From Halieaceae bacterium (GTDB lineage Bacteria; Pseudomonadota; Gammaproteobacteria; Pseudomonadales; Halieaceae): a stretch of DNA of 64,000 bases. Location of the stretch: assembly GCA_902547755.1 (NCBI GenBank), contig CACCPA010000008.1, forward strand, positions 1-64,000. Direction: 5' to 3'. The notes under the pieces were generated by a model. It did no database searches. It was not told the origin of the DNA and saw only the letters and a list, made by a program, of their open reading frames with translations. Made by a program: the position numbers and the translations under genes. Below are positions 1-25,548 of this stretch, one piece after another. The stretch's first letter is position 1, and each line of letters begins with the position of its first letter.

Positions 1-32
1 CGTGATGTTGGCTCTAAATGTGAGGGACGACG

Positions 33-320
33 ATGAAAAATGACCGCCTATCGGTGGCAAAAAAAAGCTATTTGACAAGCCTCAAAGACAAACTTAACCG
101 GCAATACCTCAGAGAAAAATCTGCTGAAACTAAGGCTGATCGGCGCTGGATCAATGGTTTTATGGCCGCCGGATACCACGGAGGTCTTATCACCCTATCT
201 GAACTCAAGCTGGAGTGTTTGTCCGCGTATAGGACCATCTACGAGAAGCGGATGGAACAAGCTGGTGAGATGCAACTCGAACGAAGACTGACAAAGCTTT
301 GCGAGGAATCGCTGGATTAA
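33..320 (+). CDS. Small basic hypothetical protein
   Basis: I do not recognise this 95-residue protein. It is rich in Lys and Arg, has no signal peptide or membrane segment, and looks helical throughout, with many charged residues. The ATG is preceded by GAGGGACGACG, a plausible ribosome site. It is the first of three closely packed small genes (next start 9 bases downstream) that lead into the zinc-finger/nuclease gene at 889, so the four may be one transcript. The region lies on the island side of the broken tRNA-Ser at 3521-3559. The upstream gene, if any, is outside the window. Confidence 0.55.
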   Translation: MKNDRLSVAKKSYLTSLKDKLNRQYLREKSAETKADRRWINGFMAAGYHGGLITLSELKLECLSAYRTIYEKRMEQAGEMQLERRLTKLCEESLD

Positions 321-329
321 AGGAGGAAG

Positions 330-554
330 ATGAACTTGGAGGAACGGCAACGACAAAAAGCACAGCTGGACTGGCGCTGGAAAAAGTTGAACCGGGTGCC
401 AATGATGTCGAAGGAATTTGACTGGCTTGAATGGGAGTTGCTCACCGACGATTATGCGGACTGGCATTGCGAGAGACCATCCATGCAAGGCGTCCTAACG
501 CGAATCCTAAAGAAGCGACGTGAGAAAAGAGAGACCGCCAATGGAAATCTTTAA
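330..554 (+). CDS. Small Trp-rich hypothetical protein
   Basis: This 74-residue protein is not recognised. It is basic at both ends, unusually rich in Trp (WRWKKL, DWLEWE, DWHCE), and has no membrane segment or signal peptide. AAGGAGG lies 7 bases before the ATG, a strong ribosome site, which makes it credible as a real gene despite its size. Its 3' end overlaps the start of the next gene by 14 bases, suggesting translational coupling. It belongs to the small-gene cluster before the treble-clef/nuclease gene. No function can be assigned. Confidence 0.55.
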   Translation: MNLEERQRQKAQLDWRWKKLNRVPMMSKEFDWLEWELLTDDYADWHCERPSMQGVLTRILKKRREKRETANGNL

Positions 555-840
555 AAAGGAATGGGGTCCCGAGGACGACCCAGACGGAACCATCATCAAC
601 GCTACAATATTGGATGACGGTTCATTGAAGATTGACGGTACTGATTATGGAAAGAGTGCTCGCGCCTTCAGCGGTGGCGAGGACTATGAATATGGTCTTC
701 ACATATCGGCCGATGATGTTCCAGCGTTTACCCTCGAACTACTGAAGAGAGCCTTCAATTTAAAGGGGCGAATCAGCTTCTCTACTATTAAAAAGATCTG
801 TAAAAACGCGAACATCGATATACAAGATTGGTACCTGTAA
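541..840 (+). CDS. Conserved-looking acidic hypothetical protein
   Basis: A 99-residue acidic protein. Its pattern is DGSLKIDG near residue 25, then a Gly/Glu/Tyr-rich stretch (GGEDYEYG), then DVPAFTLELLKRAF. This resembles a widespread family of small bacterial proteins of unknown function; I recall the pattern but not a family name. I chose the ATG at 541 over an upstream GTG at 520 because the pattern begins immediately after it and GAGAG lies just upstream. It overlaps the previous gene by 14 bases. Its acidic nature next to two basic small proteins could mean a partner or antidote role, but that is speculation. Confidence 0.6.
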   Translation: MEIFKKEWGPEDDPDGTIINATILDDGSLKIDGTDYGKSARAFSGGEDYEYGLHISADDVPAFTLELLKRAFNLKGRISFSTIKKICKNANIDIQDWYL

Positions 841-888
841 GGTCGGGCCCATGTTAACCAAATGCAGTGTAAGTGGAAGAAACAGGCT

Positions 889-2424
889 ATGCCGAAGAGA
901 GCGATAGACGAAACCTATAATCTCGCGGCAATGTTTCCTGATTTACTGGATGAGTGGAATACCGATGCTAATGCCGCGATCGGGATTTTCGCAGAGAAAG
1001 TCACACCGTACTCATATAAGAAAGCCCACTGGGCATGCAGGACTTGCGCTCACCAATGGCAAGCGCGGATATGTAATCGAACGAGAAAGAAATCAGGCTG
1101 TCCGGCCTGCTCTTCAATCGGCAAAGCCGCCAACTCTTCCAATAGTCTTGCTTCTTTGTTCCCAGGTATTGCTGATACATGGCACCCAACGCTGAATGGT
1201 TCCTTAACGCCATCGGACGTTAGATATGCTTCAAACAAAGAGGTCTATTGGCAGTGCAGTGACTATCCAGAACACGTTTTCAAACAGGGCATTGGGAAAC
1301 GGACCGGATATGGAAAGCCAACTTGCATGATTTGCTCGCGCCGATTAATCACTCCAGAAACGGCGCTCACTGCTACACACCCAGAATTGATTGCCGAATG
1401 GGACTTTGAAAAAAATCAACAACCTCCTGATACTTACTCGGCCGGCAGTACCAAAAAAGTTTGGTGGCGATGCAGTCGCTTTCCCGATGAGCACAGTTGG
1501 GAAGCGACGATAAAAAACAGGGCTATTAAGGGCTCGAGATGCCGATTCTGTAACAATCAAGGTTCAGAGCCGGAAATGCGTCTGCTAACTGAGCTTGAAT
1601 TACTTTTCCCCGGAATTCAGTATCGTGAACGTCTTCAGGGGGTAGAGGTCGATTTATATTTACCCGAGGAGCGCATTGCAATTGAATACGATGGCTCATT
1701 TTGGCATCGCGATGCCCAGTCGAAAGACCGCAAGAAAAACGATGAACTCAAAGCTCTCGGAGTTGACATCATCAGAGTGCGCCACGCACCGCTAGAAAAG
1801 TTGGGTTACTGCGACATAGTTGTACCCCACCCTGAGTTGAGTAAATCAGACTTAAACCAAGTCGTACGAATGATTACTCAACTGCGAAGTTCCTTGTCAA
1901 AATCGGAAATAGAAAATTATCTTCGATCGGCCTCTTTTAAAAATGACGATGAGTTTGTTGCCGCATGCGCTCGGATCCCGGGTGTCACGGAAAAGCATAA
2001 TGCCGCCACGAAAGCGCCCGAGCTTCGGGCGCTGTGGTCTGATAAGAATGAAATGCGTTTAGAAGACTTCTCCCACGGCTCGCACAAAAAGGCGTGGTGG
2101 ATTTGTGGAAATGTCGAGACTCATCCCGATTATTTACAATCTATCAAAGACAAGGTGAATGGGAGAGGTTGCCCCTACTGTACCGGCAAACTAGTGGCGC
2201 CAGAGAAGAGTTTTGGATTCAAGTTTCCCGATCTGGTTGCAGACTGGGATACGGAAAAAAACCAATTGTCTCCCTATGAAGTCACATACGGGTCCAAGAA
2301 ACGAATTTGGTGGAAATGCAGTGCGTGCAATCATTGTTATCAAGCCACGCCAAATAATAAGGGAAACGCGAAAACGGCATGTCCAGCATGTTCAAAATTG
2401 AGAATCCGACAACAAGATCTTTGA
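889..2424 (+). CDS. Five treble-clef zinc-finger modules with a central Vsr-like nuclease domain
   Basis: A 511-residue protein with a repeated module of about 65 residues: a Leu/Phe-Pro-[DEG]-[LI] start, a Trp near a D/N-rich turn, then [WY]W-x-C and a closing C-x2-C. Modules lie at about residues 11-75, 86-150, 160-222, 369-433 and 440-503. This fits the treble-clef zinc-ribbon family Pfam calls DUF4379. Between modules three and four (about 226-330) is a PD-(D/E)XK-type domain like Vsr/DUF559: an N-terminal Glu, VEVDLYLP, AIEYDGSFWH, then D-x2-K/R and DIIRVR. By inference it is a DNA-binding nuclease, perhaps in mobile-element defence or maintenance. The ATG at 889 has GGAAGA 7-8 bases upstream and is preferred over the ATG at 862. 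Three small genes precede it. Confidence 0.75.
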   Translation: MPKRAIDETYNLAAMFPDLLDEWNTDANAAIGIFAEKVTPYSYKKAHWACRTCAHQWQARICNRTRKKSGCPACSSIGKAANSSNSLASLFPGIADTWHPTLNGSLTPSDVRYASNKEVYWQCSDYPEHVFKQGIGKRTGYGKPTCMICSRRLITPETALTATHPELIAEWDFEKNQQPPDTYSAGSTKKVWWRCSRFPDEHSWEATIKNRAIKGSRCRFCNNQGSEPEMRLLTELELLFPGIQYRERLQGVEVDLYLPEERIAIEYDGSFWHRDAQSKDRKKNDELKALGVDIIRVRHAPLEKLGYCDIVVPHPELSKSDLNQVVRMITQLRSSLSKSEIENYLRSASFKNDDEFVAACARIPGVTEKHNAATKAPELRALWSDKNEMRLEDFSHGSHKKAWWICGNVETHPDYLQSIKDKVNGRGCPYCTGKLVAPEKSFGFKFPDLVADWDTEKNQLSPYEVTYGSKKRIWWKCSACNHCYQATPNNKGNAKTACPACSKLRIRQQDL

Positions 2425-2499
2425 TAAGAACTTTCCTCGTTTAAAACACTGCGTTTATGCATACGTCCAGATGGCGATTGTGAGTGGAATATGAAGGCG

Positions 2500-3162
2500 T
2501 CATTTAGGTCCGCCCTCAAGACGGATCCGAAGGTCGACAACAGCGTCGCAGAAGTCCTCTAATTCACTACTTCCTTCCATCATATCAGCCTGTTGTTTAT
2601 AAATTTCATGTGCGCCTCGAAGCGCCTCGATAGTCTTGTAGTCTGACGCGTCCGAAACTGTGGGCGCGTAGTCACCATAAAAGCTATGCTTTTTGAAAAG
2701 CGAATAAAGTTTCTCGGGATCGTAATGGAGATAAGGAAGCACGTTCAGATCAAGAGCCTCTTTTACAAAAGGCAAAGCCTCAGCAAGAACTTTATCAACA
2801 TCGTCTCGAAGTTTTGCGTCGATATCCCAGACCGATTCATCTGAGTAATCGCCTCGCGTCATTAAAAACTCAGCGGGTTCTAATTTATCTAAAAACGCTT
2901 TGACTAGTGACAAGATCCCAAGCTTTTCAGCTTCCTCTAAGTGGTATTGAAATCGTTCCCATTTATCTAGGTCACTAGCACCCCATCCTGCCAGAATGAG
3001 AGGATTCTTTAATCTGGTTTCTGGAACATTCACCTTGGGGTGGGCCTGCATGATCTTCGCGGCTCTAATCAGCTTGCATAGCTTTTCCCACGGTATGGGG
3101 AGAGGACAAACAACACCTCGAGTCTCAAGTTCCGAGATCAATGCATGTAAAGATTCTGACAA
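2500..3162 (-). CDS. Hypothetical protein, 220 residues, lone gene
   Basis: A soluble acidic protein that I do not recognise. It has no signal peptide, membrane segment, cysteine motif or recognisable catalytic pattern, and is mostly predicted-helical, Leu/Glu/Lys-rich sequence. The start is a TTG at 3162, supported by GGAGGA about 9 bases upstream; no ATG or GTG lies near. It is convergent with the zinc-finger/nuclease gene, with 75 bases between the stop codons and no clear terminator. It is the last gene of the accessory segment before the tRNA-Ser break. Confidence 0.55.
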   Translation of the reverse strand: MSESLHALISELETRGVVCPLPIPWEKLCKLIRAAKIMQAHPKVNVPETRLKNPLILAGWGASDLDKWERFQYHLEEAEKLGILSLVKAFLDKLEPAEFLMTRGDYSDESVWDIDAKLRDDVDKVLAEALPFVKEALDLNVLPYLHYDPEKLYSLFKKHSFYGDYAPTVSDASDYKTIEALRGAHEIYKQQADMMEGSSELEDFCDAVVDLRIRLEGGPK

Positions 3163-3349
3163 CTACTTCGTCCTCCAAACTAACGGCTAGACCTATTCCA
3201 CCAAGTAAATACTCCTGCCTCTATTCATTCAATAAAGATCGAGGGAATGCTTTGCGTCATCGTTAACCTTGACCTTATCTAAACCGTGTAAGTTGAAAAC
3301 AAGCTCCCGGGAAAGACAAAACCCTATCGACAGATAATGGGCTTCTTTT

Positions 3350-3371
3350 AAAAAAAAAGGGGGGGTGGGGG
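3350..3371. repeat. Homopolymer tract A9-G7-T-G5
   Basis: Nine A (3350-3358) run into seven G (3359-3365), then T and five more G. It sits in the non-coding end of the island. Such a tract is prone to slippage and to sequencing or assembly error, so exact lengths should be treated with care. No gene is in phase with it. Confidence 0.6.
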
Positions 3372-3382
3372 TACGAATAAAC

Positions 3383-3402
3383 TGGCTACACTTTTGGCTA
3401 CA
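3383..3402 (+). repeat. Two direct copies of TGGCTACA, 12 bases apart
   Basis: TGGCTACA occurs at 3383-3390 and 3395-3402, about 120 bases island-ward of the tRNA-Ser break. Short direct repeats of this kind near a tRNA-borne att site can be arm-type integrase or excisionase binding sites. Here that is only an inference, because no integrase gene is visible. Confidence 0.35.
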
Positions 3403-3520
3403 AAACCAAAGTTTTTAGAGGAATTTAGGAGTGAAGCGAGGAGTCGAAGAACCGCTCAAGACGCTTAGATTAATGTCTTATGGGGCCTAGCGACGCAAGG
3501 AAGTAAACATGAAATCAGAC

Positions 3521-3559
3521 TTAGCAGGGGAGCGCCTTCAGCCACTCGGCCACTTCTCC
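3521..3559 (-). pseudogene. 5' half of tRNA-Ser(GCU), truncated at the anticodon loop
   Basis: Read on the minus strand from 3559, the sequence opens GGAGAAGTGGCCGAGTGGCT and continues through the D-arm, the 5' anticodon stem CTCCC and the full loop CTGCTAA with anticodon GCT. The next base is G as expected. After that the expected stem GGGAG is lost and no variable arm, T-arm or 3' acceptor strand follows. The gene lies in the same direction as alaS, lysC and csrA, which is where tRNA-Ser(GCU) sits in E. coli and Pseudomonas. The break at the anticodon loop is a classic tyrosine-recombinase crossover site. As it stands it cannot make a tRNA. Confidence 0.85.
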
Positions 3560-3715
3560 GAATTTTTCTTCAATGACGCGAGAAAACAGCGTCATCATCG
3601 CGACTTTACGTTCTCGCCGCGCGGTGCGCGAGAGTAGCACAACCTAAAGCGCTTGCGATATCAGGTCCGCAAAAAATCCCGTGCAACATGGGCACACAAT
3701 AACGCCATCGTATTT

Positions 3716-4543
3716 TCAAGCTGCTCGGAAATAGGGTCTATCCCCAGCGATCGTCACCCGCTCCATTTTTCGGACCTGCGGAAAGTAATCCGAGCTCGCA
3801 AAATGCTGACAGGCGCGGTTATCCCAGAATGCCAATGATCCTGCTTTCCAGCGGAACCGACATTGGATTTCAGGGTCAGATGCGGTGCGATACAAGGTTT
3901 GAAGTAGCTCTTCGCTTTCAGCTTCATCCATTCCCTTGATATGACTGGTGAAGGCGTAGTTCACGTAAAGCACACTCGCGCCCGTCTTAGGGTGGGTTCT
4001 CACCACAGGATGCTCCATAACCGGATAGGTCTCGCGAAGCTGATCCGCCGTTTTATTGAGACGTCCAGCAAAAACCCGGGCGATATCATGAACCGCAGTT
4101 TTTCCGGCAATTTTTTCCTTCAAAGTGTCTGGCAACCGCTCATAGGCCTCTGACATATTCGCGAAAAGCGTATCGCCCCCAACTGCCGGCACCTCCACGG
4201 CCTTGAGGATCGAACCCAGTGATGGCTTTTCCCGCCACGTAACGTCCTAGTGCCAGGAATTCTCCCGCCCTTTCGAGTCAGGGCCATGGGCTATATGAAG
4301 TACCTCGGGGTTGTTCTGCCCTTTTGGCGTCGCTGGATGGATCTCTAGCTAACCAAACTGCCTCGCGAAGTGAATATGCTCCTCCTGATTGAGGGTCTGA
4401 TCTCGGAAAAATACAACCTGGTGCTTCAATAACGCGGCTCGTATGCCTGTCAACTGCTTCTGGGTCACCTCCCCGAGATCGACACCAGTGATTTCAGCAC
4501 CGATAAAGGGGGTCAAGGGTTCTATCGTTAGTTCAGAGGTCAC
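3716..4543 (-). pseudogene. TauD/TfdA-family dioxygenase with two in-frame amber codons
   Basis: The frame encodes 275 codons, normal for Fe(II)/2-oxoglutarate dioxygenases of the TauD family, and aligns along its whole length. It is interrupted by TAG at codon 65 (4351-4349) and codon 99 (4249-4247). No frameshift is present: FARQFG, amber, LEIHP, and later SWH, amber, DVTW. The second amber falls inside the iron-binding H-x-D motif. The distal His (ACQHFASSDY) and the C-terminal Arg (MERVTI) are intact. The GTG start has a strong AGGAGG site. This looks recently dead, since family members usually have Glu at the first position (one base from TAG) and Ser or Thr at the second. Substrate unknown; taurine or another sulfonate is only a family guess. 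Confidence 0.8.
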
Positions 4544-4683
4544 GGGCTCCTCCTGCTTGGCTTTTTATTATTGCTGTCGAGAGCAGACTAACGAAGGCGC
4601 TCAGTGATGTAAATCGAGCTCAACCGTAGCGACCTCTAGAAATGAAATACCGGCGCTTGGCCGATTGGATGGCGCCCGAGCCG

Positions 4684-4881
4684 CTATCTGGCGACTTTAT
4701 CATCCGCGCGCGAAGTGGGTGTCTCGTCATCCTTTTGCGCAAGCTCTTCACGATGGACAGATACATCTCGCGGGGCATCAACCCCTATACCAACTTGATT
4801 ACCTTTGACACCAAGAATAGTGACTGTGACATCGTCACCGATGACCAGCGACTAGTTAATCCGCCTTGTGAGAATAAGCAT
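4684..4881 (-). pseudogene. csrA: csrA (carbon storage regulator) with amber at codon 10
   Basis: Downstream of lysC on the same strand the frame reads MLILTRRIN, amber, [19 protein letters not shown], and on through GIGVDAP and VHREEL. This is CsrA/RsmA, an RNA-binding dimer that represses translation at GGA sites. The amber (4854-4852) replaces the usual Glu10, one base from GAG. The ATG has GGGAAG 7-8 bases upstream. No ATG, GTG or TTG follows in frame, so re-initiation is unlikely. The RNA-contacting VHRE Arg is kept, but the usual Arg in NQVRIG is Gly and the C-terminal tail is atypical, which suggests drift. Its place between lysC and tRNA-Ser is the standard one. A second csrA copy elsewhere is likely. 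Confidence 0.8.
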
Positions 4882-4923
4882 CGTCAACTTCCCTGTTTAT
4901 TAGACACAGGGTCAGACTACACC

Positions 4924-6165
4924 TCAGTCCTGCGCTTCTCCAGCCTGAGGTTGATCAAGCCCGAACGCTGAATGCAGCGTACGTACAGCCAACTCCAAGA
5001 ACTTCTCTTCGATAATCACTGAAATTTTGATTTCGGACGTGCTAATCATCTGCATATTGACACCTACTTCAGCCAGAGCTTTAAACATATTGGCCGCTAC
5101 GCCCGCGTGAGAACGCATGCCTACACCGACGACAGACACCTTGGCAATCTTGCTATCTGATCGCCATTCCAGTGCGCCAAGTTCAGCGATGTGTGATTCT
5201 AAAATGGCTTCGGCTTTTTCTAAGTCGCTGCGCGAGACAGTGAATGTAAAGTCCGTTTTTCCCTCATCGCCGACGTTCTGAAGAATAACGTCGACTTCGA
5301 TGTTCGCATCGCCGATGGGGCCCAATATCTGATAGGCAATACCGGGCGTATCCGGTACACCAATGACAGTGAGCTTTGCCTCATCGCGATTAAACGCAAT
5401 ACCAGCAATCGTTGGAGCTTCCATGGGATCGTCCTCATCTATTTTTATGAGGGTTCCTGGCCCCTCTTTGAAACTACTGAGTACCCGCAGTGGCACTTGG
5501 TATTTGCCTGCAAATTCGACCGATCTGAGCTGCAACACCTTCGAACCCATGCTGGCCATTTCCAACATCTCTTCAAATGTGATGCTCTCCAGTCGTCGAG
5601 CACCATCCACAATTCTTGGATCGGTCGTGTAAACCCCATCAACGTCGGTGTAGATCTGACATTCGTCCGCACCAACGGCAGCGGCCAAAGCAACCGCTGA
5701 GGTGTCAGAGCCACCCCGCCCCAATGTCGTCACCTCGCCGTTTGCATCAACACCCTGAAATCCAGCTACCACCACGACGCGGCCTCGATCGAGTTCAGCT
5801 CGGAGCCGACGATCATCGATACTTTGTATGCGCGCTTTGCTGTGAAAACTGTCAGTACGAATCGCGACCTGACTGCCTTTGAGCGAGAGTGCATCGATTT
5901 CACGCTTGTGAAGTGCCATCGCCAACAGCGCCATCGACACCTGTTCGCCGGTGGAAACGAGGACATCGAGTTCTCTCGGGCTTGGATTGGAGGTCAAATC
6001 GCGCGCCAACCCCAAGAGACGATTGGTTTCACCCGACATAGCCGACACGACAATGATCAGTTGATCACCGTCTGAGTGGTGCCTTGCAACTCGCTCAGCA
6101 ACGGCTTCTATTCGCTCTACCGAGCCAACAGATGTGCCACCGTATTTTTGCACGATCAGTGCCAT
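4924..6165 (-). CDS. lysC: Aspartate kinase
   Basis: A 413-residue enzyme that phosphorylates aspartate, the first step to lysine, threonine, methionine and diaminopimelate. The N-terminal kinase domain begins with KYGGTSVG (residues 7-14) and includes the GRGGSDTSA nucleotide-binding loop. Two ACT domains fill the last third (from about residue 265) and would carry allosteric control by lysine and/or threonine. Length fits the monofunctional class. It follows alaS on the same strand across a terminator-like hairpin and precedes the csrA pseudogene by about 40 bases. The lysine branch it feeds is well represented here (dapA, dapC, dapD, dapE). Confidence 0.97.
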   Translation of the reverse strand: MALIVQKYGGTSVGSVERIEAVAERVARHHSDGDQLIIVVSAMSGETNRLLGLARDLTSNPSPRELDVLVSTGEQVSMALLAMALHKREIDALSLKGSQVAIRTDSFHSKARIQSIDDRRLRAELDRGRVVVVAGFQGVDANGEVTTLGRGGSDTSAVALAAAVGADECQIYTDVDGVYTTDPRIVDGARRLESITFEEMLEMASMGSKVLQLRSVEFAGKYQVPLRVLSSFKEGPGTLIKIDEDDPMEAPTIAGIAFNRDEAKLTVIGVPDTPGIAYQILGPIGDANIEVDVILQNVGDEGKTDFTFTVSRSDLEKAEAILESHIAELGALEWRSDSKIAKVSVVGVGMRSHAGVAANMFKALAEVGVNMQMISTSEIKISVIIEEKFLELAVRTLHSAFGLDQPQAGEAQD

Positions 6166-6230
6166 AGTTAGTTGGGTCTATGCCGAGAAGCCGCGTATTA
6201 AACACGGTTTGGAGAATCATATAAAGACGA

Positions 6231-6251
6231 AAAGCCCCATATTGGGGCTTT
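6231..6251 (-). terminator. Hairpin between alaS and lysC
   Basis: AAAGCCCC and GGGGCTTT form a perfect 8-bp stem around a 5-base loop, 29 bases past the alaS stop. In the alaS direction the stem is followed by TTTCGTCTTT, a modest U-tract. It probably reduces read-through from alaS into lysC. Confidence 0.65.
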
Positions 6252-6279
6252 AATCATAGCTTCGACGATGTGCTTGTCC

Positions 6280-8880
6280 TCAGCTGAGCTGCTCGGCCAC
6301 CCACTTAGACAAGTCGGAAAGCGCAGGCTTTAAGGCTGTAACCTCAGTACCGCCACCTTGTGCCATGTCGGGTCTACCGCCGCCTTTTCCACCGACTCGA
6401 CCCGCAAACTCTCTCATAAGGTCACCGGCCTTCACGCGATCGGTTAAATCAGCCGTCACGCCGGCCACCAGGGATATCTTATCGCCGTCAACTGCGGCGA
6501 GAAGTACGACGCCCGAGCCGAGTTTATTCTTACAGTGATCAAGCGTCTGACGTAGCGTAGACGCATCAGCACCATCGACCACTGTTCCCAGCACCTTGAT
6601 GCCTGAAACGTCTTGAGCATCAGCTGTCAAATCGGCGCCTGCACCCGTCGCGAGCTTTTGCTTTAGTTGCGTGACTTGCTTTTCAAGTTCGCGAAGCTCC
6701 CTTCGGAGGCTGATCACTTTGTCTGCCGCATTGGCCGGCGAGCCTTTGACTGCATCGCAGATATCCGCAAGTACTCTGTCCGTTCTCGCGATATCTTCAA
6801 GTGCGCCCACGCCAGTAACCGCCTCGATTCGACGGACACCGGCGGCGACACCGCCTTCGCTCACCACTCTGAATACGCCAATATCACCGGTGCGTTCAAC
6901 GTGCGTACCACCACACAGTTCCACCGAAAAGCGGTCCGCACCCATCGTCAGTACGCGTACCTCGTCACCATATTTCTCCCCAAACAATGCCGTGGCGCCC
7001 GCCTCTCTAGCCGCCTCCATGTCCATCTCTTGGGTCAGTACCTCGGAGTTGCCTTGCACCTGGTCATTCACAATTTTCGCAACCTGCGATAACTGTTCAC
7101 CTGAAACGGCTTCTGCATGGGAGAAATCGAAGCGAAGCTTGTCAGCGTCAACCAGGGAGCCTTTCTGCTGAACGTGCTCACCCAGCACTTGTCTGAGTGC
7201 CTCATGCATCAGATGCGTCGCGGAGTGATTCGCTTTAATTCGTGTTCTCAGTGATTGATCAATGCTAGCCAAGACAGTATCGCCTGCAGTCAGTGCGCCA
7301 CTAACAACGACCGCATGGTGTAAATGATGGCCCTGTGCTTTCGTGGTGTCTCTTACCTCAAGCTTGGCAGAATCTGTCGTCAGATAACCGGTATCACCGA
7401 CCTGACCCCCGCTCTCGCCGTAGAAGGGCGTCCGGTCCAGAATAACGACAATCTCATCGCCCTCTTCAGCGCGCTCACAGGACTGTCCATCCTGGAAAAG
7501 ACCGCGGACAGTCGCCTGTGCTTGAACTTCGCTATACCCAAGAAACTCGGTTTCGCCATCCACATTAATCACATTGTTGTAATCAACTTGGAAAGAACCG
7601 CTCTCTTGCGATCGCTTACGCTGTTCCTGCATGGCCACTTCGTAGCCCTCGATATCGAGTTCGAGACCACGCTCTCTGGCAATGTCATTGGTCAGATCGA
7701 CGGGGAAGCCGTAGGTGTCATATAAGCGGAAAACGACGTCACCCGGAATTTGGGTGCCCTGAAGCGACGTTAAAGCCTCCTCGAGGATATCCATACCCTT
7801 ATCCAAGGTGCGCGCGAACTGCTCCTCCTCAAAAGCCAGCGCCTTGATGATTGTCGCCTCTTGAGCAACGAGCTCCGGGTAGGCCCCACCCATCTCCCGC
7901 ACCAAAGCAGGCACCAGTGCGGCAAAAAACGGTTCGATGGCACCGAGCTTATTACCGTGCCGAATAGCGCGACGCAAAATACGGCGCAAGACATAGCCTC
8001 TGCCCTCATTGCTGGGAAGAACGCCGTCAGAAATCAGGAATGCACACGATCTTAAATGATCGGCAACAACTCTGAGCGATGTGTGTGAATGATCTTCGAC
8101 CCCGAGGATATCCGCTGCCGACGCAATCAATGCCTTGAAAAGATCAATGTCGTAGTTGTTATGGACGCCCTGCAGTACAGCAGAAATTCGCTCGAGTCCC
8201 ATACCCGTATCGACCGACGGTGCAGGAAGGGGATGTAATTCGCCCGAACTGTCTCGGTTGAATTGCATAAAGACTAAATTCCAGATCTCGATGTAACGAT
8301 CCAAGTCATCGTTAGGTGAACCCGGAGGCCCACCGGGCACTTCAGGGCCATGGTCAAAGAAAATCTCGGACGACGGACCACAGGGTCCGGTGTCACCCAT
8401 TTGCCAAAAGTTGTCCTCGTCCAATCGGGACAGGCGATTAGGGTCGACACCAATCTCGTCGATCCAGATCTTTGCTGCTTCATCATCCGATATGTGGACT
8501 GTGACCCAGAGCTTTTCCTTTGGAAGCTTCAGATCTTCCGTTAAGAAGGTCCATGCAAATTGAATGGCATCGCGCTTGAAGTAATCTCCGAAACTGAAAT
8601 TACCCAACATTTCAAAGAATGTGTGATGACGCGCCGTGTAGCCCACGTTTTCAAGGTCGTTGTGCTTGCCCCCAGCTCTGACGCACCGCTGACTCGATGC
8701 AGCCCGGCTGTAATCGCGGATCTCGACTCCCAAAAACGTATCTTTAAACTGATTCATTCCCGCGTTAGTGAACAGGAGTGTTGGATCGTCGTGCGGCACC
8801 AGCGAGCTTGAGGCGACACGCGTGTGCCCTTGGCGCTCAAAATACGACAGAAACGCTTCTCGAATTTCAGCAGTCTTCAT
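6280..8880 (-). CDS. alaS: Alanyl-tRNA synthetase
   Basis: An 866-residue class II synthetase that charges tRNA-Ala and edits misactivated Ser and Gly. The N-terminal catalytic core ([26 protein letters not shown]) is followed by the tRNA-recognition region. The editing domain carries its zinc ligands: H552 and H556 in NHSATH, and C656 and H660 in CGGTH. The C-terminal oligomerisation/C-Ala domain ends with a Gly-rich segment ([15 protein letters not shown]) typical of AlaRS. Length is normal. The alaS-lysC-csrA order is typical of gammaproteobacteria. Confidence 0.98.
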
Positions 8881-8916
8881 GCGTGGATCTCAAAATTAGT
8901 AACGGGAGGTGCTCTG

Positions 8917-9273
8917 CTAGGCCAAGCCCGAAGCAAGCTCAACCTCTTTCATGTCTCGGCCAGCCAGGATATGTAGGTGTAAGTGGAATACCGTTTGGCC
9001 ACCACCTGCACCGTTATTAATGACCAAGCGGAACGCATCTGCGACTCCCAATTGGTCTGCAACTTTGCCAGCAACCACCAACAAATGACCGAGCAGCGAC
9101 TGATCTTCCTCACTCGCCATATTCAGCATAGGGATTGGCTTGCGGGGAATAATCAACACGTGGGTGGGCGCTTGCGGATAGATATCCTTGATCACGACAC
9201 ACAGATCGTCTTCATAGAGAAAATCGGTTGGGATTTCGCCACGCGTAATCTTTCCAAATATGGTGTCTTCCAC
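8917..9273 (-). CDS. HIT (histidine triad) family hydrolase
   Basis: A 118-residue HINT-like protein. It begins with the family pattern DTIFGKI...IPTDFLYEDD and ends with the histidine triad FHLHLHILAG, whose central His is the nucleophile for purine nucleoside phosphoramidates and aminoacyl-adenylates. It is the last of three closely spaced minus-strand genes (M23 peptidase, Trm112-like protein, HIT). The stop codon is TAG. Soluble cytoplasmic enzyme; its physiological substrate is usually uncertain. Confidence 0.93.
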   Translation of the reverse strand: MEDTIFGKITRGEIPTDFLYEDDLCVVIKDIYPQAPTHVLIIPRKPIPMLNMASEEDQSLLGHLLVVAGKVADQLGVADAFRLVINNGAGGGQTVFHLHLHILAGRDMKEVELASGLA

Positions 9274-9278
9274 GAGAT

Positions 9279-9470
9279 CTACCCCAACTTCTCGTCGGCT
9301 GTTAGCTGTCGTGCCTCGCCTTCCAGCAATACGGGAATACCATCCTTTACTGGGTAGGCAAGACCACTGGCTTTACAGACCAGCTCTTGTTTCGCTTCAT
9401 CATAATCCAAGGGCGCCTTGGTGACTGGGCATACCAAAATTTGCAGCAACTTTTTATCGAGCACGGGCAT
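9279..9470 (-). CDS. Trm112/UPF0434 family small zinc-ribbon-like protein
   Basis: A 63-residue protein of the YcaR/UPF0434 family: [14 protein letters not shown] near the N-terminus, then [20 protein letters not shown]. The family resembles Trm112, a methyltransferase-activating subunit. The usual second Cys of the first knuckle is Thr here (CPVTK), as in many bacterial members, so zinc binding may be lost. It lies 5 bases upstream of the HIT gene. Confidence 0.9.
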
Positions 9471-9508
9471 CTCCTCACTGAACCGCTAAGTATACGCGCT
9501 AATACTCA

Positions 9509-10330
9509 TTAGGGCATCGGGGGCACCAGTAACTGAGGATCAATTCGTTGATTGAACCAACTCATCCGCCAGTCCAGGTGCGGGCCTGTAGCACGTCCAG
9601 TAGCGCCGATGGCCCCAATCAGGTCGCCCACCTCGAGAACATCACCGACTTCAACATCGATTCGGCTCATGTGTAGAAAAGACGAGCTCAGGCCATAACC
9701 ATGATCCAGGATCACCGTGCCGCCACTATAGAAAAAATCGGGCTCAGCGAGTGTCACGAGACCCGGCCCAGGCGAATAGACAGGTGTGCCCGTGGGCCGT
9801 GCAATATCAACACCATAATGAGGGTTTCCTGGATTACCGTTGTAGAAGCGCTGACTGCCATAAACCCCGCTGATCCGTCCCGTCGCGGGCCACGACAAGC
9901 CAGTTTTGACTGCCTTCAAAAAGCCCTCGTTCTCGATGCGTCTTGATTTAGCGCTTTGAACTTTTTCTCGCTCACGTCGGATACGCTCTAACTGCTCTGC
10001 CGGAGGTGTCACCGTGCGCTGCGGTACACCCTCTACCCTCGAAATGCGGTATTCACGGGTGGCTATATTGAGCGAGCAAACCACATCCTCTCCGACGGTA
10101 AGATCCATTTCGTTCGGAGCATTTCGTCCCAAACCAACAACGAAGCTACCGTCAGGTAACACCGGCACATCGATGTTCTCGAAACGAACGGCGGTTCCAG
10201 GTATAACTTCTCCCCAAAGAAGGCCGCCCGGCTTGAACTGACCTTCAAGCTCGGGGCAGATGACCTCTTCCGACTGGACAAAAGCAGAACCAAACGCTGT
10301 CAATATGAAAATGAGTGAAGTTGCTCTCAT
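9509..10330 (-). CDS. Secreted M23-family metallopeptidase (LytM-like)
   Basis: A 273-residue exported protein. Residues 1-20 form a signal peptide (MRATSLIFILTAFGSAF). A beta-rich region and a charged, probably helical linker (EQLERIRREREKVQSAK) precede a C-terminal LytM domain. The zinc site appears as HYGVDIARPTGTPV, and SSSFLHMSRIDVEVGD provides the second metal/catalytic segment (HxH-like: FLHMS). It would cut or regulate cutting of peptidoglycan in the periplasm. First of a three-gene minus-strand cluster with the Trm112-like and HIT genes. Confidence 0.9.
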   Translation of the reverse strand: MRATSLIFILTAFGSAFVQSEEVICPELEGQFKPGGLLWGEVIPGTAVRFENIDVPVLPDGSFVVGLGRNAPNEMDLTVGEDVVCSLNIATREYRISRVEGVPQRTVTPPAEQLERIRREREKVQSAKSRRIENEGFLKAVKTGLSWPATGRISGVYGSQRFYNGNPGNPHYGVDIARPTGTPVYSPGPGLVTLAEPDFFYSGGTVILDHGYGLSSSFLHMSRIDVEVGDVLEVGDLIGAIGATGRATGPHLDWRMSWFNQRIDPQLLVPPMP

Positions 10331-10468
10331 GGTAAATTCTCGATAAAAATCCTGGTAGAAGTCCCAATAGTCGTTGGCTCAATGGTGTCTCAGTGACTGA
10401 CCTGAATCCAGCGTTGTTACGTTTTCTCTGTTGACCGGATCCACCAGCAAACACAGGTTTTGAAGTCA

Positions 10469-10966
10469 ATGTCACGATACCGTCCGCCCCGAGCCAAAGG
10501 CTCGCCTTACATTACCCCCGAAGGCATCGACCGATTGCGGGACGAATTAAACACGCTTTGGAAAGTTGAGCGACCAAAGGTAACCGCCACCGTGCATGCG
10601 GCGGCACTCAATGGTGACCGCTCTGAAAACGGTGACTATATTTACGGAAAAAAGCGGCTGAGGGAAATAGACAGTCGCGTCCGGTTTCTTCAAAAGCGAC
10701 TGGATGAACTTCAAGTCGTCGACACAAAGCCGTCGGATACAAATCGCATCTTTTTTGGCTGCTGGATCGGCCTCGAGGACGAGGAGGGAATAACCCACAA
10801 CTACCGTATCGTCGGCCCTGATGAATTTGATCTTAATCAAGGACTTCTGAGCTGTGATTCGCCTCTCGGCAGGGCGTTATTGGGCAAATTTGCGGGCGAT
10901 ACCGTGTATTTGAAAACCCCGGAAGGTGAAACGGAGTGGTACATCGACTCCATCACCTATGAATAG
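10469..10966 (+). CDS. greB: Transcript cleavage factor GreB
   Basis: A 165-residue GreA/GreB protein. The N-terminal coiled coil (about residues 15-80) carries the acidic tip in NGDRSENGDYIYGKKRLREID. The C-terminal FKBP-like domain has SPLGRALLGKFAGDTV. YGKKRLREID and the RYRPPR N-terminus indicate GreB rather than GreA. It rescues backtracked RNA polymerase by stimulating transcript cleavage. I use the ATG at 10469 rather than a TTG nine bases upstream because MSRYRPPR is the conserved start. It is divergent from the M23 peptidase gene. The stop is TAG. Confidence 0.95.
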   Translation: MSRYRPPRAKGSPYITPEGIDRLRDELNTLWKVERPKVTATVHAAALNGDRSENGDYIYGKKRLREIDSRVRFLQKRLDELQVVDTKPSDTNRIFFGCWIGLEDEEGITHNYRIVGPDEFDLNQGLLSCDSPLGRALLGKFAGDTVYLKTPEGETEWYIDSITYE

Positions 10967-11054
10967 CTAAATTTAATTAAAATTCACACCAACAAAAGCG
11001 ACATAACGGCCTTGGGACCAGACTGACAAGTGCTAACATCCCAAGAAGTCGTTT

Positions 11055-13931
11055 ATGCTCAACCCAGTTGGAGATCTGCCGTTGAATCGCAATGCTACTG
11101 ACGCTTTCAGCCACCGACACCTCGGTACCACACCGGTTCAACAAGAAGAAATGGCTCAAAGTGCGGGTTTCGAAAGTGTTCAAGAACTCATAGAAACAAC
11201 CGTCCCAGACAACATCAAACTTCAAACCGCCCTGAATGTACCACCCGCTCTTAGCGAGAGTGAAGCGCTGACAAAGCTCCGGCATTACGCGGATCAAAAC
11301 AAAGTGCTCAGAAGTTGTATCGGCATGGGTTACTTCGACACCATTACCCCGCCAGTATTGCTTAGAAATGTTTTTGAGAATCCGGGGTGGTACACGGCGT
11401 ACACGCCCTACCAGCCTGAAATCTCACAAGGTCGTCTGGAAACGCTGCTGACCTTCCAGCAAGTCATTATTGACCTAACGGGCATGCCGCTTGCCAACGC
11501 GTCACTACTGGATGAGGCCACTGCGGCTGCAGAAGCCATGACGCTCATGCAACGCATGAACCGAAAATCCAAATCAAAGCGATTTGTGGTTGCCAGTGAC
11601 TGTCACCCGCAGACCATTTCATTGGTTGAGACACGTGCTGAACCACTGGGTATCACCGTAGAGATCGTCGAGCCTGATGAACTGACTAATGTTACTGATG
11701 CCTTCGGTGTATTGGCCCAATACCCCGGAACCTACGGCGACGTTCGAGACCTCAGTGACATCATTGGTCACTGCCACAATGCAGGTGCACTCGTAGGTGT
11801 AGCCTCCGATTTGTTGGCGCTTACCCTCCTCAAATCACCGGGCGCCATGGGCGCCGATGTCGTTTTCGGAAACTCTCAACGATTTGGTGTCCCCCTGGGT
11901 TACGGAGGGCCCCATGCCGCCTTCTTTGCAACCCGTGACGAGTTCAAGCGCTCTATGCCCGGGCGCGTCATCGGCGTGTCGGTCGACAGCAAAGGGCGCC
12001 AGGCGCTCCGCATGGCAATGCAAACGCGCGAGCAACACATCCGGCGAGAGAAGGCGACAAGCAACATCTGCACGGCACAGGCCTTGCTCGCGATCATGGC
12101 AGGACTCTTCGCTATGCATCATGGCCCGCAGGGGTTACGGGGGATTGGTGAGCGAGTCCACCAGATGACGTCTTCGTTGGCGGCATCGCTTACCAGTGCT
12201 GGCTTTAACCTACAAAATGCATCGTGGTTCGATACGCTCTGTATCGAAGTTGATGACGCGGCGCAGGTCATTCAAGCGGCCGAATCGGCTGGCTTCAACT
12301 TCCGCGAAATTTCGTCAACCCGTATCGGAGTATCACTCGACGAGACAACGACGCACGAGGAACTTCGCGCGATTTGTAGGATTTTTGATGCTGAGCCCAC
12401 TGGCGGACGATCGGGCATTCCCTCGAAGCTGTTGCGTGAGATGGACTACCTAAGCCATCCACTGTTTAGCGACTACCGGACAGAGACGGAGATGCTTCGC
12501 TATCTCAAGCGTTTAGAGAACAAGGATATCTCGCTGACACGCGCGATGATTCCGCTCGGTAGTTGCACCATGAAACTTAACGCGGCTGCGGAGATGATCC
12601 CGGTATCTTGGCCTGAATTCTCCCGCATCCACCCGTTTGCTCCACAACATCAAGTGGCAGGCTACCGCGCCATGCTCGATGAGCTCACCGCGTGGCTTAC
12701 CGAGTGCACGGGCTATGACGCCATGTCGCTACAGCCCAATTCAGGGGCACAGGGAGAGTACGCTGGATTAATGGCGATCAGACGCTACCACCGGGCGCGG
12801 GGTGAATCACATCGGCATATATGTCTGATCCCAACATCAGCGCATGGAACGAACCCGGCGAGCGCGGTGATGGCAGGGATGACGGTTGTGTTGGTGAACT
12901 GTGATGACAGCGGTAATGTCGACATGGCTGACCTCAAAGCCAAAGCTGAACTCCACTCCACCGACCTCGCCGCAATCATGGTGACCTACCCGTCCACACA
13001 TGGGGTGTTTGAGACGTCGATCGTTGAGCTCTGCGAATTGATTCACCAGCACGGCGGTCAGGTTTATGTTGATGGCGCTAACCTAAATGCATTGGTTGGA
13101 CTCGCGGGTCCAGGTAAGTTTGGTGCTGACGTATCCCACCTAAACCTCCATAAAACGTTCTGCATCCCGCACGGTGGTGGTGGGCCTGGCATGGGGCCCA
13201 TCGGAGTCGGCAGCCATTTGGCACCACACCTGCCCTCATCGGTGGTCGCGCCCCTCAAAGGCCTGGATGCAACCAATAACGTCATTTCAGCAACGCCGTA
13301 CGGGAGCGCCTCGATTCTGCCCATTTCGTGGATGTACATTGCAATGATGGGTCCGGATGGCGTCACCGACGCCAGTCGCGTTGCAATCGTTCACGCCAAC
13401 TACATTGCCAGCCGTCTCAAAGGTCATTACGACGTCTTATATACGGGGAAAAAGGGCACTGTCGCCCACGAATGCATCATCGATATTCGCCCCCTCAAAG
13501 ACAGGACTGGAGTGACAGAGGAAGACGTTGCTAAACGACTTATCGACTATGGGTTCCACGCGCCCACCATGTCGTTCCCCGTCGCCGGTACACTAATGAT
13601 CGAACCGACGGAGTCAGAATCGTTGGCTGAAATCGACCGATTCTGCGACGCAATGTTGTCAATCCGTGGTGAAATTAGGGCGGTGGAGGAAGATCGCTCT
13701 GACCCCATTAACAACCCACTTAAAAACGCACCACATACACTGGACGAGGTCACCGCTGATCAGTGGGATCGCCCCTACGGCAGAGAACAAGCTGCATGGC
13801 CCGTGGCATCTTTGCGAGCCGATAAGTACTGGGCGCCCGTCAATCGAGTCGACAACGTTTACGGCGATCGCAATCTGATTTGCTCGTGTCCGAGCATCGA
13901 GTCTTATCTAGAACCCATAGAACCCGCTTGA
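11055..13931 (+). CDS. gcvP: Glycine dehydrogenase (decarboxylating), P-protein
   Basis: A 958-residue pyridoxal-phosphate enzyme that decarboxylates glycine and passes the aminomethyl group to the H-protein lipoyl arm. Both halves of the single-chain bacterial form are present. The PLP-binding Lys is at about residue 700 in [19 protein letters not shown], and the N-terminal half has the homologous fold ([18 protein letters not shown]). Length is normal. No gcvT or gcvH lies nearby, so the other subunits must be elsewhere. The 88 bases after greB are too short for a glycine riboswitch and show none. Confidence 0.97.
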
Positions 13932-22914: not shown

Positions 22915-25548
22915 TTAGAATCCACGCCCCAGCGTGAATTGGAAAACTTCTCTGCGATCAGTCTCGCTGGCATTTAGCGGTCTGGCAAGCGCAAACGTCA
23001 AGGGACCAAAGCCGCTCAGCCAAGTGACGCCAACACCAACGGAATACCGGAGTTCATCGGCGTCGATACCGAAGCAGTTAATTTGATTTTGTCGGCAGTT
23101 GGTATTGAACACATTACCCACGTCAAAGAAGAACGCTGAACGAATGGAGCGTCGATCCTTTACGAAAGGCATGGGGAACAAAATTTCAGCGGAGCCCTCG
23201 ATTACCACGTTACCGCCAAAGGGATCAGCTCGACGCCCAAGGAAGACTTGCTGAGTTTCAATCGCACCTGTTTCCGGATTAACAATGTAACCAAAGCCCG
23301 TGCCATCTGGACCACCAATCTCGGTCGCCAAACCCTCTTCATCGACCGCTGTTGCAGCGAAGCCTGTTTGATAGAGCACGGGAGGCGTGCTTCTCGGACC
23401 AAGGGTATTTGTCTCAAAACCGCGGACACTACCAAAGCCGCCCGAGAAGAAGTGTTCGTAGAATGGCAGCTCAGTGGTCTCTCCATAGCCATCGCCGTAG
23501 CCCACCTCACCGCGCAAGTGGAATGTAAACTCGCGATAAATTGGAATATACATCTCACCTCGGTAGTTAACCTTGAAGAATTCAAGATCGGAACCGGGCA
23601 TCGACACCTGCGCTGAGAGTGAGTTAGACACACCACGTGTCGCAAGCTGACCACGGTTCAGTGTGGACTGAAGCCAAGAGCCTGTGATGGACCAGTTAGT
23701 AAAAGAATCCCCGTTTTGATCAAGGAAACCATCCGAGCGCAAAGTAGCAAGGGCTTCATTGGGTAAATCCGTAATCGAGAAAAGCTCTTCCGGGCCATCA
23801 TAAAGTCCGGTTGGCTGGCGGGTTGAAACATAATACTGTTCGACGCCCGGGATTAGTCGAGGGCTGGTACGGATCTCCTGCACCGCATAGCGGCCAGAGG
23901 TGATCTCGGTATCGGTAATGCCTACATTGAAGCCCAGCCGCTGCGTTTCGCTAATAGGATAGCCAAACGTCATCTGCGCACCCACGGTATCCGTCGTATA
24001 GCTCGCTACATTAATCTCAGAGAGATCTGTCTTTCGATAAAACAGGCTAAAGCCCCTACTCACGCCGTCCTCGGTGAAGTAAGGATTGCTGTAACTAATA
24101 CTTGCCAAACTTTGATAGCGCGACGAGTTCAGGTTAAGCCCAACTTGGCGCCCCGTTCCCATAAAGTTGTTCTGCTGGAGATTCAACCCGAGGATCAAAC
24201 CTGCCCATTGCGAGTAGCCCAAACTGCCGCCAATCGAGCCGAAGCTCTGCTCTTCAACAGTGAAATCAATATCGACCAGATCGTCGTAACCAGGCAGTTC
24301 GACCGTCTCTACTTCAGCGGTACTAAAGAATCCCAAGCGCTCGAGACGAATTCTCGACTGCTCAATTGCAGCGGATGAGGCTGGCGCAGCTTCCATCTGA
24401 CGCATCTCTCGCCGGAGTACGTTGTCAGCCGTACGATTATTGCCTTCGAAGTTGATGCGTCGAACATAGGTACGCCGACCCGGATCGATGAAGAACTTGA
24501 TGGACACTTCCGCGTCGCCATCACCCACTTCGGGGATGCCCGTTACTTTTGCAAAGTTGTAACCCTCGTTACCCAGGCGGCGCGTGAGGTACTCCTCCGT
24601 ACTCGTCACCAGTCGCTGCGAAAACACCTGTCCCTCGGCGACTAAGAGGAATCGCGATAGATCCTCCTCCGGCAATACCAAATCACCCGAAAGGTCGACA
24701 CCGGTGACGGTAAAGCGATCTCCCTCCACCACGTTGGCTGTGATGTAGACCGCGTCTTTAGCTGGTGAAACCGCAACCTGCGTCGATTCAATTTCGAACT
24801 GCAGATAGCCACGGTCCTGGTAATAGCTGGTGAGTGTCTCTAGGTCTGACTCGAGTTTCTCCTTGCTGTACTTGTCGGCGCTTGAGAAGAAGCTAAACAT
24901 GCCGCCGACCTGTAGCTCGAAGATATCCAACAAGGTCTCGTCGTCGAAAATCTCGTTACCGACGATATTGATGTGCTTGATCTTCGAAACGGTGCCCTCA
25001 TCGATATCGATACTGATTGATACACGGTTTCTCGGCTCTGGAATAACTTCCGTATCAATATTGGCGTCGTAACGCCCCTGAATAACGTATTGGCGAAGCA
25101 GCTCGAGTTGCATCCCGTCCAATGTCGAGCGTTGGAACACCTGACCAACGGCAAGTCCTGCGCCCTTTAGGCCGTCGAGCAGCGCCTCGGTTTCAATGGC
25201 TTTATTACCGTCGATAGTAATCTCGCTAATACTTGGTCGCTCAGCGACAGTAAGCACCAGCACATTGCCATCACGACCGACCGAAATATCGTCAAAGTTG
25301 CCCGTATAGAACAGGTTTCGAGAGATGGACCTGACAGAGGCGCCATCCACCACATCGCCAACACTGACGGGTAGCGCGGCAAACACACTGCCAGGCGCAA
25401 TACGTTGCAAACCTTCAACTCGAATATCCGCCACAACAAACGGCTCGATCTGCGCCGTCGCAGTCGGAACCGCAATGACTGACATCGCACCAAAGCTTAA
25501 GACCGCAACGAGCCTTGTGAACCAATTGTTATTGAATTTACGCACCAT
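22915..25548 (-). CDS. bamA: Outer-membrane protein assembly factor BamA
   Basis: An 877-residue Omp85 protein. It has a signal peptide (cleavage after TATAQ-like sequence near residue 32), five POTRA domains (about 35-430), and a 16-strand barrel ending in Phe. The L6 motif VRGFETNTLGPR is present. It is somewhat longer than the E. coli protein (810), with extra length in barrel loops such as the segment around RQPTGLYDGPEELF. It inserts beta-barrel proteins with BamB-E; bamC is in this window at 45639-46697. Neighbours rseP and skp are standard. Confidence 0.97.
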   Translation of the reverse strand: MVRKFNNNWFTRLVAVLSFGAMSVIAVPTATAQIEPFVVADIRVEGLQRIAPGSVFAALPVSVGDVVDGASVRSISRNLFYTGNFDDISVGRDGNVLVLTVAERPSISEITIDGNKAIETEALLDGLKGAGLAVGQVFQRSTLDGMQLELLRQYVIQGRYDANIDTEVIPEPRNRVSISIDIDEGTVSKIKHINIVGNEIFDDETLLDIFELQVGGMFSFFSSADKYSKEKLESDLETLTSYYQDRGYLQFEIESTQVAVSPAKDAVYITANVVEGDRFTVTGVDLSGDLVLPEEDLSRFLLVAEGQVFSQRLVTSTEEYLTRRLGNEGYNFAKVTGIPEVGDGDAEVSIKFFIDPGRRTYVRRINFEGNNRTADNVLRREMRQMEAAPASSAAIEQSRIRLERLGFFSTAEVETVELPGYDDLVDIDFTVEEQSFGSIGGSLGYSQWAGLILGLNLQQNNFMGTGRQVGLNLNSSRYQSLASISYSNPYFTEDGVSRGFSLFYRKTDLSEINVASYTTDTVGAQMTFGYPISETQRLGFNVGITDTEITSGRYAVQEIRTSPRLIPGVEQYYVSTRQPTGLYDGPEELFSITDLPNEALATLRSDGFLDQNGDSFTNWSITGSWLQSTLNRGQLATRGVSNSLSAQVSMPGSDLEFFKVNYRGEMYIPIYREFTFHLRGEVGYGDGYGETTELPFYEHFFSGGFGSVRGFETNTLGPRSTPPVLYQTGFAATAVDEEGLATEIGGPDGTGFGYIVNPETGAIETQQVFLGRRADPFGGNVVIEGSAEILFPMPFVKDRRSIRSAFFFDVGNVFNTNCRQNQINCFGIDADELRYSVGVGVTWLSGFGPLTFALARPLNASETDRREVFQFTLGRGF

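Follow-up and report, generated by a model that had tools for sequence, protein, structure and literature searches.

A tRNA-Ser(GCU) gene in a Luminiphilus genome very probably split and rebuilt in its 5' half by one integrative element, with a second element at its 3' end

We analysed a window comprising the first 64 kb of contig C8 from a Luminiphilus MAG (2.09 Mb, 53 contigs, 72% complete). This stretch holds the 5' half of a tRNA-Ser(GCU) gene. We consider it very likely that an element with a tyrosine integrase (element A) split this gene in its 5' half and rebuilt it with a 5' half of its own, and that another element (element B) took the 3' end. The attP of element A would consist of tRNA positions 1-40 flanked by arm-type TAGCC pairs, and the crossover would fall within the 5' half, with the anticodon stem-loop as the most likely place. 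After integration, one end (window 3520-3559) would hold the native 5' half together with its upstream region, and at the other end the 5' half from the element would be fused to the rest of the native gene, giving the full tRNA at C18:3582-3672. Element B would have inserted conventionally at the 3' end of this tRNA, leaving a 14-nt 3' fragment followed by the native downstream flank. We infer the order of these events, as well as the exact crossover base and the promoter discussed below.

A lone 5' half in the window

On the minus strand, 3559-3520 corresponds to positions 1-40 of tRNA-Ser(GCU): the sequence starts with the acceptor stem's first base and runs one stem base past the anticodon loop. 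From 3519 downwards the sequence is unrelated to tRNA-Ser(GCU) and no 3' half follows the stump. This bears out the initial annotation, which had described a 5' half ending at the anticodon loop (minus strand, 3559..3521) without a 3' half, and extends the exact match through position 40. ARAGORN called no tRNA within the 64-kb window and a 3' half was also absent further along, while nothing in the window reached an Rfam gathering score and a known RNA at the break (e.g. a group I intron) was not found. The displaced native 5' half (3520..3559, minus strand) is 100% identical over positions 1-40 to the intact copy at C18:3582-3672 and would form the core of attL.

The initial annotation pointed to csrA as the direct neighbour of tRNA-Ser(GCU) in E. 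coli and Pseudomonas; here a TauD/TfdA dioxygenase gene (3716..4543, minus strand) stands between csrA and the half. This gene is broken by two in-frame TAG codons (4349-4351 and 4247-4249); PF02668 matches both pieces, and the five relatives compared all have an open frame. The csrA gene (4675..4881, minus strand), the only one found in the assembly, has an in-frame TAG at codon 10. An intact chromosomal flank, collinear with the uninterrupted locus of the relative G019, starts with lysC (4924..6165, minus strand), with alaS next. The csrA gene of G019 is likewise degenerate; that some members of the genus may have lost this global regulator is possibly worth a look. While csrA and TauD carry stops, the adjacent promoter-like block and the 40 nt of the stump are unchanged, as might be expected of a functional relic whose native upstream region gives rise to a 5' tRNA half or to a small RNA that extends into the element. 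However, an unchanged 40-nt attachment core is also expected after recent integration and requires no function, and we regard such a relic as most improbable.

An intact copy next to a tyrosine integrase

A tRNA search of the whole assembly gave 29 matches, 28 of them above the cut-off, and the sole tRNA-Ser(GCU) that ARAGORN recognised among these loci is intact, at C18:3582-3672. Stump and intact copy share an exact block of 41 bp (window 3520-3560 = C18:3581-3621, E 2.7e-15) made up of tRNA positions 1-40 and one flanking base. When the first 6 kb of the window are compared with the first 20 kb of C18, no other common stretch reaches 14 bases. A tyrosine integrase gene (integrase A; C18:2314-3498) is whole, encodes 394 aa and ends 83 bp upstream of the intact tRNA; its product has a PF00589 domain (E 1.3e-19) together with arm-binding and SAM-like N-terminal domains. 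Directly after the intact tRNA lies the gene for a second, different integrase (420 aa).

A look to the left of the window had been proposed. Nothing there can be read because the window starts at the first base of C8, but the far end was found on C18. The earlier suggestion of a tRNA rebuilt at the far end, by an element carrying a replacement 5' half, agrees with what we see there: the intact copy stands 83 bp behind the integrase gene and is followed, past the second element, by the native downstream genes. An intact tRNA-Ser(GCU) with its own csrA elsewhere, which would have spoken against this, was not found, the only csrA being that of the window. The possibility, also raised, that the interrupted gene was the only copy holds within the 72%-complete assembly but is not provable for the missing part. 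In three single-contig genomes of the genus (G005, G030 and G077) there is one copy each at at least 97% identity, with the next match at 85%.

With the cut-offs used, no other genome among 57 of the genus or 293 of the order gave a full-length match to integrase A, and neither a free attP nor a close integrase relative was found in the viral contigs of IMG/VR. In a phage collection 2,445 records match integrase A, all below 60% identity, with 15 matches listed at 28-30%.

The empty site and the ends of element A

We take positions 1..3519 of the window to be one end of element A, cut by the start of C8, on the basis of GC content, a genus-unique ORF and absence from the G019 locus. In windows of 1000 bases, GC is 45-48% within 1-3500 versus 50-55% for 3501-12000, and none of the five ORFs tested at the C8 end has a match in the empty-site locus of G019. 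The ORF at 2500-3162 is present in one of the 57 genus genomes, the window's own, and the ORFs tested, one per end of element A, are absent from the other 56.

In G019, a single contig carries the uninterrupted order alaS-lysC-csrA-TauD-tRNA-Ser(GCU)-2OG oxygenase-AMP ligase. In the window's genome, C8 carries alaS-lysC-csrA-TauD-half, and C18 carries intact tRNA-(element B)-2OG-AMP ligase. The comparison with a relative lacking the island, as had been recommended, thus shows an empty site whose left part corresponds to C8 and whose right part corresponds to C18. This synteny, the GC content at the left end of C8 and the genus-unique ORFs indicate that the lone half is the native 5' half, and that the rebuilt tRNA therefore consists of the element's 5' half and the native remainder. 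The deletion or rearrangement that had been offered as a source of the lone half is not needed. The layout of the G019 empty site would place the stump upstream of the tDNA in the same orientation, C8 and C18 being separate contigs.

C8:1-3519 and C18:1-3581, which are not joined in the assembly, would be the two ends of one element; if so, element A is at least 7.1 kb long, as both contigs end inside it. No tie between the cargo of the two ends was found through relatives. The cargo at the C8 end includes a 520-aa protein (862..2424, plus strand) with five DUF4379 zinc-finger stretches (PF14311, E 3.9e-75) and a Vsr/DUF559-like nuclease region, the latter from weak DUF559/MTES_1575 and weak Vsr matches and from PHROG HNH/homing endonuclease families. 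A 220-aa protein (2500..3162, minus strand) gave no family in searches that included Pfam and PHROG, and three small ORFs (33-320, 330-554 and 520-840, within 33..840, plus strand) have no Pfam or PHROG match.

Arm-type sites and a recurring junction

A TAGCC-N7-TAGCC pair at 3384..3400 (minus strand), +120/+132 after the half, probably represents integrase arm-type sites of the P' arm. There are two exact matches to this pattern in the window, versus 0.06 expected; the other, at 23486, is inside an unrelated gene. A TAGCC pair is also present at -69/-57 before the rebuilt tRNA on C18. The predicted sites thus lie on both sides of the core, as in a classical lambda-type attP.

The same junction anatomy is found in a separate Luminiphilus MAG (G024; JAQWUD010000031.1, L123). 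Its 40-nt stump is identical, lies 48 bases beyond the csrA match and is followed by TCT as here, by a TAGCC pair at +119/+131 (+120/+132 here) and by the same C-run and T-run. The score of the attL alignment was reached by none of 300 simple shuffles, which do not keep the C and T runs. An intact tRNA-Ser(GCU) was not found in the G024 assembly. A misassembly or chimeric contig at window position 3520, which the initial annotation had also considered, might be suspected in a MAG where C8 and C18 both stop inside the island. Against this, the junction recurs in G024 and similar lone halves occur in records of named strains, e.g. Litoreibacter and Jannaschia, and we consider such an artefact highly unlikely.

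The displaced half appears to have kept the core of the native tRNA promoter, TTGTGCTACTCTCGCGC (3626..3642, minus strand), since a similar block is present in relatives. The block, TGTG.TA..CT-CGC, lies at most 95 nt upstream of the tRNA in nine other native-side genomes (G004, G005, G007, G009, G018, G019, G027, G030 and G035), occurs as a variant in G033 and was not found in G023 or G024. The upstream sequence on the element side differs from the native one and is partly conserved among the remnant-bearing genomes described below. Judged from the geometry, element-derived sequence would now have to drive transcription of the rebuilt tRNA. A consensus scan found no sigma-70-like site before either the stump or the rebuilt tRNA, so that promoter replacement is deduced from the geometry.

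A second element at the 3' end

A 14-nt 3' fragment (tRNA positions 78-91) is found at C18:12112-12125, 8.4 kb downstream of the tRNA, and the sequence after it is 83% identical to the native downstream flank of G016. Since the fragment is followed by a native-like flank, element B (C18 about 3673-12111, ~8.4 kb) is an ordinary 3'-end integrant. It encodes its own integrase, a prohead protease-capsid fusion and an AAA_25 protein that shares 54% identity with an AAA_25 protein of element A. The stump (1-40) and the 3' fragment (78-91) together omit positions 41-77, and two insertions are therefore needed: both ends of one tRNA gene have been replaced, by two elements. In G028, too, integrases flank the tRNA on both sides: an integrase A remnant precedes it and another integrase follows. 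With its AAA_25 protein and prohead protease-capsid fusion, element B (L030:5854-10075, C18) may be a capsid-forming phage satellite.

The absence of a 3' half after the stump could also be explained if the 3' half of the tRNA had been deleted and element A carried a complete tRNA-Ser(GCU) as cargo to cover the loss, as in tRNA-dependent lysogeny, for which such tRNA-carrying phages exist (available text of PMC10865867). However, the intact tRNA leads through element B to the displaced 3' fragment, the native flank and the downstream genes, and its 3' part is therefore that of the native gene. In addition, the common block is the whole 5' half, versus a core of ~10 bp in the tRNA-dependent lysogeny described in that text (PMC10865867). 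The cargo explanation is contradicted by the synteny with G019 and largely refuted, and we give it very little weight beside the rebuilding of the native gene by element A.

Survey of the genus

We searched 57 genomes of the genus, found an intact or nearly intact tRNA-Ser(GCU) in 36 and mapped one locus of each. At 17 of the 36 loci, csrA lies upstream within about 1.4 kb without a fragment or an integrase. Six have a 22-nt 5' fragment and a hairpin-rich unit between csrA and the tRNA, and in seven the tRNA is directly preceded by integrase A, whole in the window's genome (G000) and a remnant in the others. The remaining six are of other kinds or cut (G002, G016, G018, in which the tRNA is inverted, G066, G068 and G076). 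The other 21 genomes yielded no intact copy; among these, G024 has the stump alone and the contig of G027 ends 21 nt into the tRNA.

The remnants, carried by six of the 35 other loci, are C-terminal stretches of the integrase at 65-77% identity (G001, G017, G028, G034 and G074) or 35% (G020). Their frames measure 40-115 aa versus 400 in G000 and stop 54-92 bp before the tRNA. Both arm sites, some of them degenerate, are found in G000, G001, G017, G028 and G034, and a single one in G020 and G074. A degenerate piece of the 5' half (positions 14-35) remains after csrA in G028. The picture suggested by these sequences is one of old 5'-side insertions that would have lost their inner parts and kept the stretch adjacent to the tRNA. 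We dropped G001, at first a candidate for a complete 28-kb single-contig island, as an example of an intact element: the ORFs between looked ordinary by eye, and G001 has a stump of the 22-nt hairpin-unit type.

A broader reading of the genus, to which we give about equal chances of being right or wrong, is that transcription of this essential and apparently single-copy tRNA in Luminiphilus has repeatedly been taken over by 5'-restoring elements in a way that is not easily reversible. With the native promoter left behind at the stump, the end of the integrase gene, the arm sites and about 80 bp would stay fixed before the tRNA well after the remainder of the element decays (six genomes with remnants, one with the whole integrase). 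The gene in the window's genome would then be a mosaic of three sources, with the 5' half and upstream region from element A, a native middle, and the 3' tip and downstream region from element B.

The hairpin-rich unit, found in the csrA-tRNA interval of six Luminiphilus genomes, consists of the first 22 nt of tRNA-Ser and about 100 nt of hairpins (L103:92-246, L196:2109-2232 and L195:1104-1226, minus strand; L197:5799-5953, L098:6610-6736 and L202:7489-7642, plus strand). It was matched in six of 14 genomes searched, only beside tRNA-Ser(GCU) or its stump. Two-sided changes keep five of its 30 predicted pairs, G059 has three 5' fragments, and no Rfam family fits the one copy tested. The inverted intact tRNA-Ser(GCU) of G018 (L106 8814-8904, minus strand) is inverted relative to csrA-TauD.

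Comparison with known systems

In the available text on Islander, 159 of 3,919 islands have 5' fragments versus 3,760 with a 3' fragment (PMC4383910), so the 5'-restoring kind is known but uncommon. The 5'-fragment islands resemble the present case in having a tyrosine integrase and an intact tDNA with a displaced 5' fragment upstream (PMC4383910, available text). We find an intact tDNA (C18:3582-3672), a fragment that reaches its 5' end (C8:3520-3559) and a tyrosine integrase between them, where "between" rests on the G019 synteny. The length range set by Islander is 2-200 kb, against a lower bound of 7.1 kb for element A if C8:1-3519 and C18:1-3581 belong together. In contrast to what that text describes (PMC4383910), the 3' end of the tRNA has also been replaced here, and the genus displays repeated use of the 5' side and decayed integrase remnants. 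Together with the part of the review seen (PMC8371274), this minority class in Islander leads us to view the finding as a well-resolved new case of a known minority class.

According to the same part of the review, rebuilt bacterial tRNAs are read by their original promoter with very few exceptions, and pTN3-like archaeal integrases use the tRNA 5' half, a situation seldom met in bacteria (PMC8371274). As in the pTN3 type, attB here would be the 5' half of the tRNA and the rebuilt gene would be read from the element's side. In the pTN3 type, however, the integrase promoter reads the tRNA and integration splits the integrase gene (PMC8371274, part seen), whereas the integrase gene here is whole (394 aa) and ends before the tRNA, rather than being interrupted as in suicidal integration. 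In tRNA-dependent lysogeny, the integrating element likewise becomes responsible for an essential tRNA, but a separate phage tRNA gene complements and none is rebuilt (PMC10865867, available text); here the gene itself is rebuilt, and a full tRNA stands at the att junction. Conventional integration at the tRNA 3' end is what element B has done, whereas element A replaces the 5' half and the promoter side. Nothing on 5' halves was found in the available portions of PMC9897764 and PMC11476347. Neither a two-sided replacement nor a run of integrase remnants before a tRNA was met in the portions of the literature searched, where phrases with prime signs are unsearchable and absence is unprovable.

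The locus is a clear example, open to checking, of how the uncommon 5'-restoring mode would make a mobile element the promoter donor of an essential tRNA. A single genus displays the empty site, the stump, the rebuilt gene and decayed remnants together, and it provides a natural test of tRNA expression under promoter replacement. Finders restricted to displaced 3' fragments would miss the 5'-fragment class.

Lone 5' halves beyond the genus

GTDB species genomes were scanned for copies of the tRNA-Ser(GCU) 5' half in which the next two bases are G and a non-G base. Of the 13 loci recovered, one is an intact tRNA (Hartigia), one belongs to the Luminiphilus record and 11 are lone halves from alphaproteobacteria, a group to which we assign the named strains with these halves. 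Among these 11, an intact copy lies downstream on the same contig and in the same orientation in Litoreibacter (3.9 kb) and Jannaschia (21 kb). Two others (Kandeliimicrobium and strain F11138) have it on the same contig in the opposite orientation, a layout that the simple scheme does not give. The intact copy is on another contig in five of the 11, and none was recognised in two. Litoreibacter (L120) is an independent, compact and complete case, with half, integrase, Septu-type PtuB and PtuA genes and rebuilt tRNA within 4 kb; the bases upstream of its rebuilt tRNA resemble the native ones.

When the ORF beside the half was tested at 10 loci (without L115 and L121), an integrase was found in L114, L120 and L124 and a weak match in L117, with none in the other six. 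Just inside the lone-half end, three alphaproteobacterial elements carry homologous proteins of 780-820 aa (L118:789-3188 and L122:927-3275, plus strand; L116:411-2864, minus strand) that are 75-78% identical in the two pairs compared and belong to no Pfam or NCBIfam family. We had considered these ORFs of ~800 aa beside the three halves as large integrases, an idea for which Pfam and NCBIfam gave no support.

In two alphaproteobacterial genomes, L119 (6251-6294, plus strand; 7576-7665, minus strand) and L118 (3275-3314, minus strand; 4916-5005, plus strand), half and intact copy form opposite-orientation pairs with a spacing of 1.3-1.6 kb. In the MAG COS2_bin_10, one contig (L175) carries a pair of tRNA-Ser 5' halves that point the same way and are separated by 5.6 kb (4006-4046 and 9690-9729, both plus strand), perhaps reflecting two successive 5'-side insertions.
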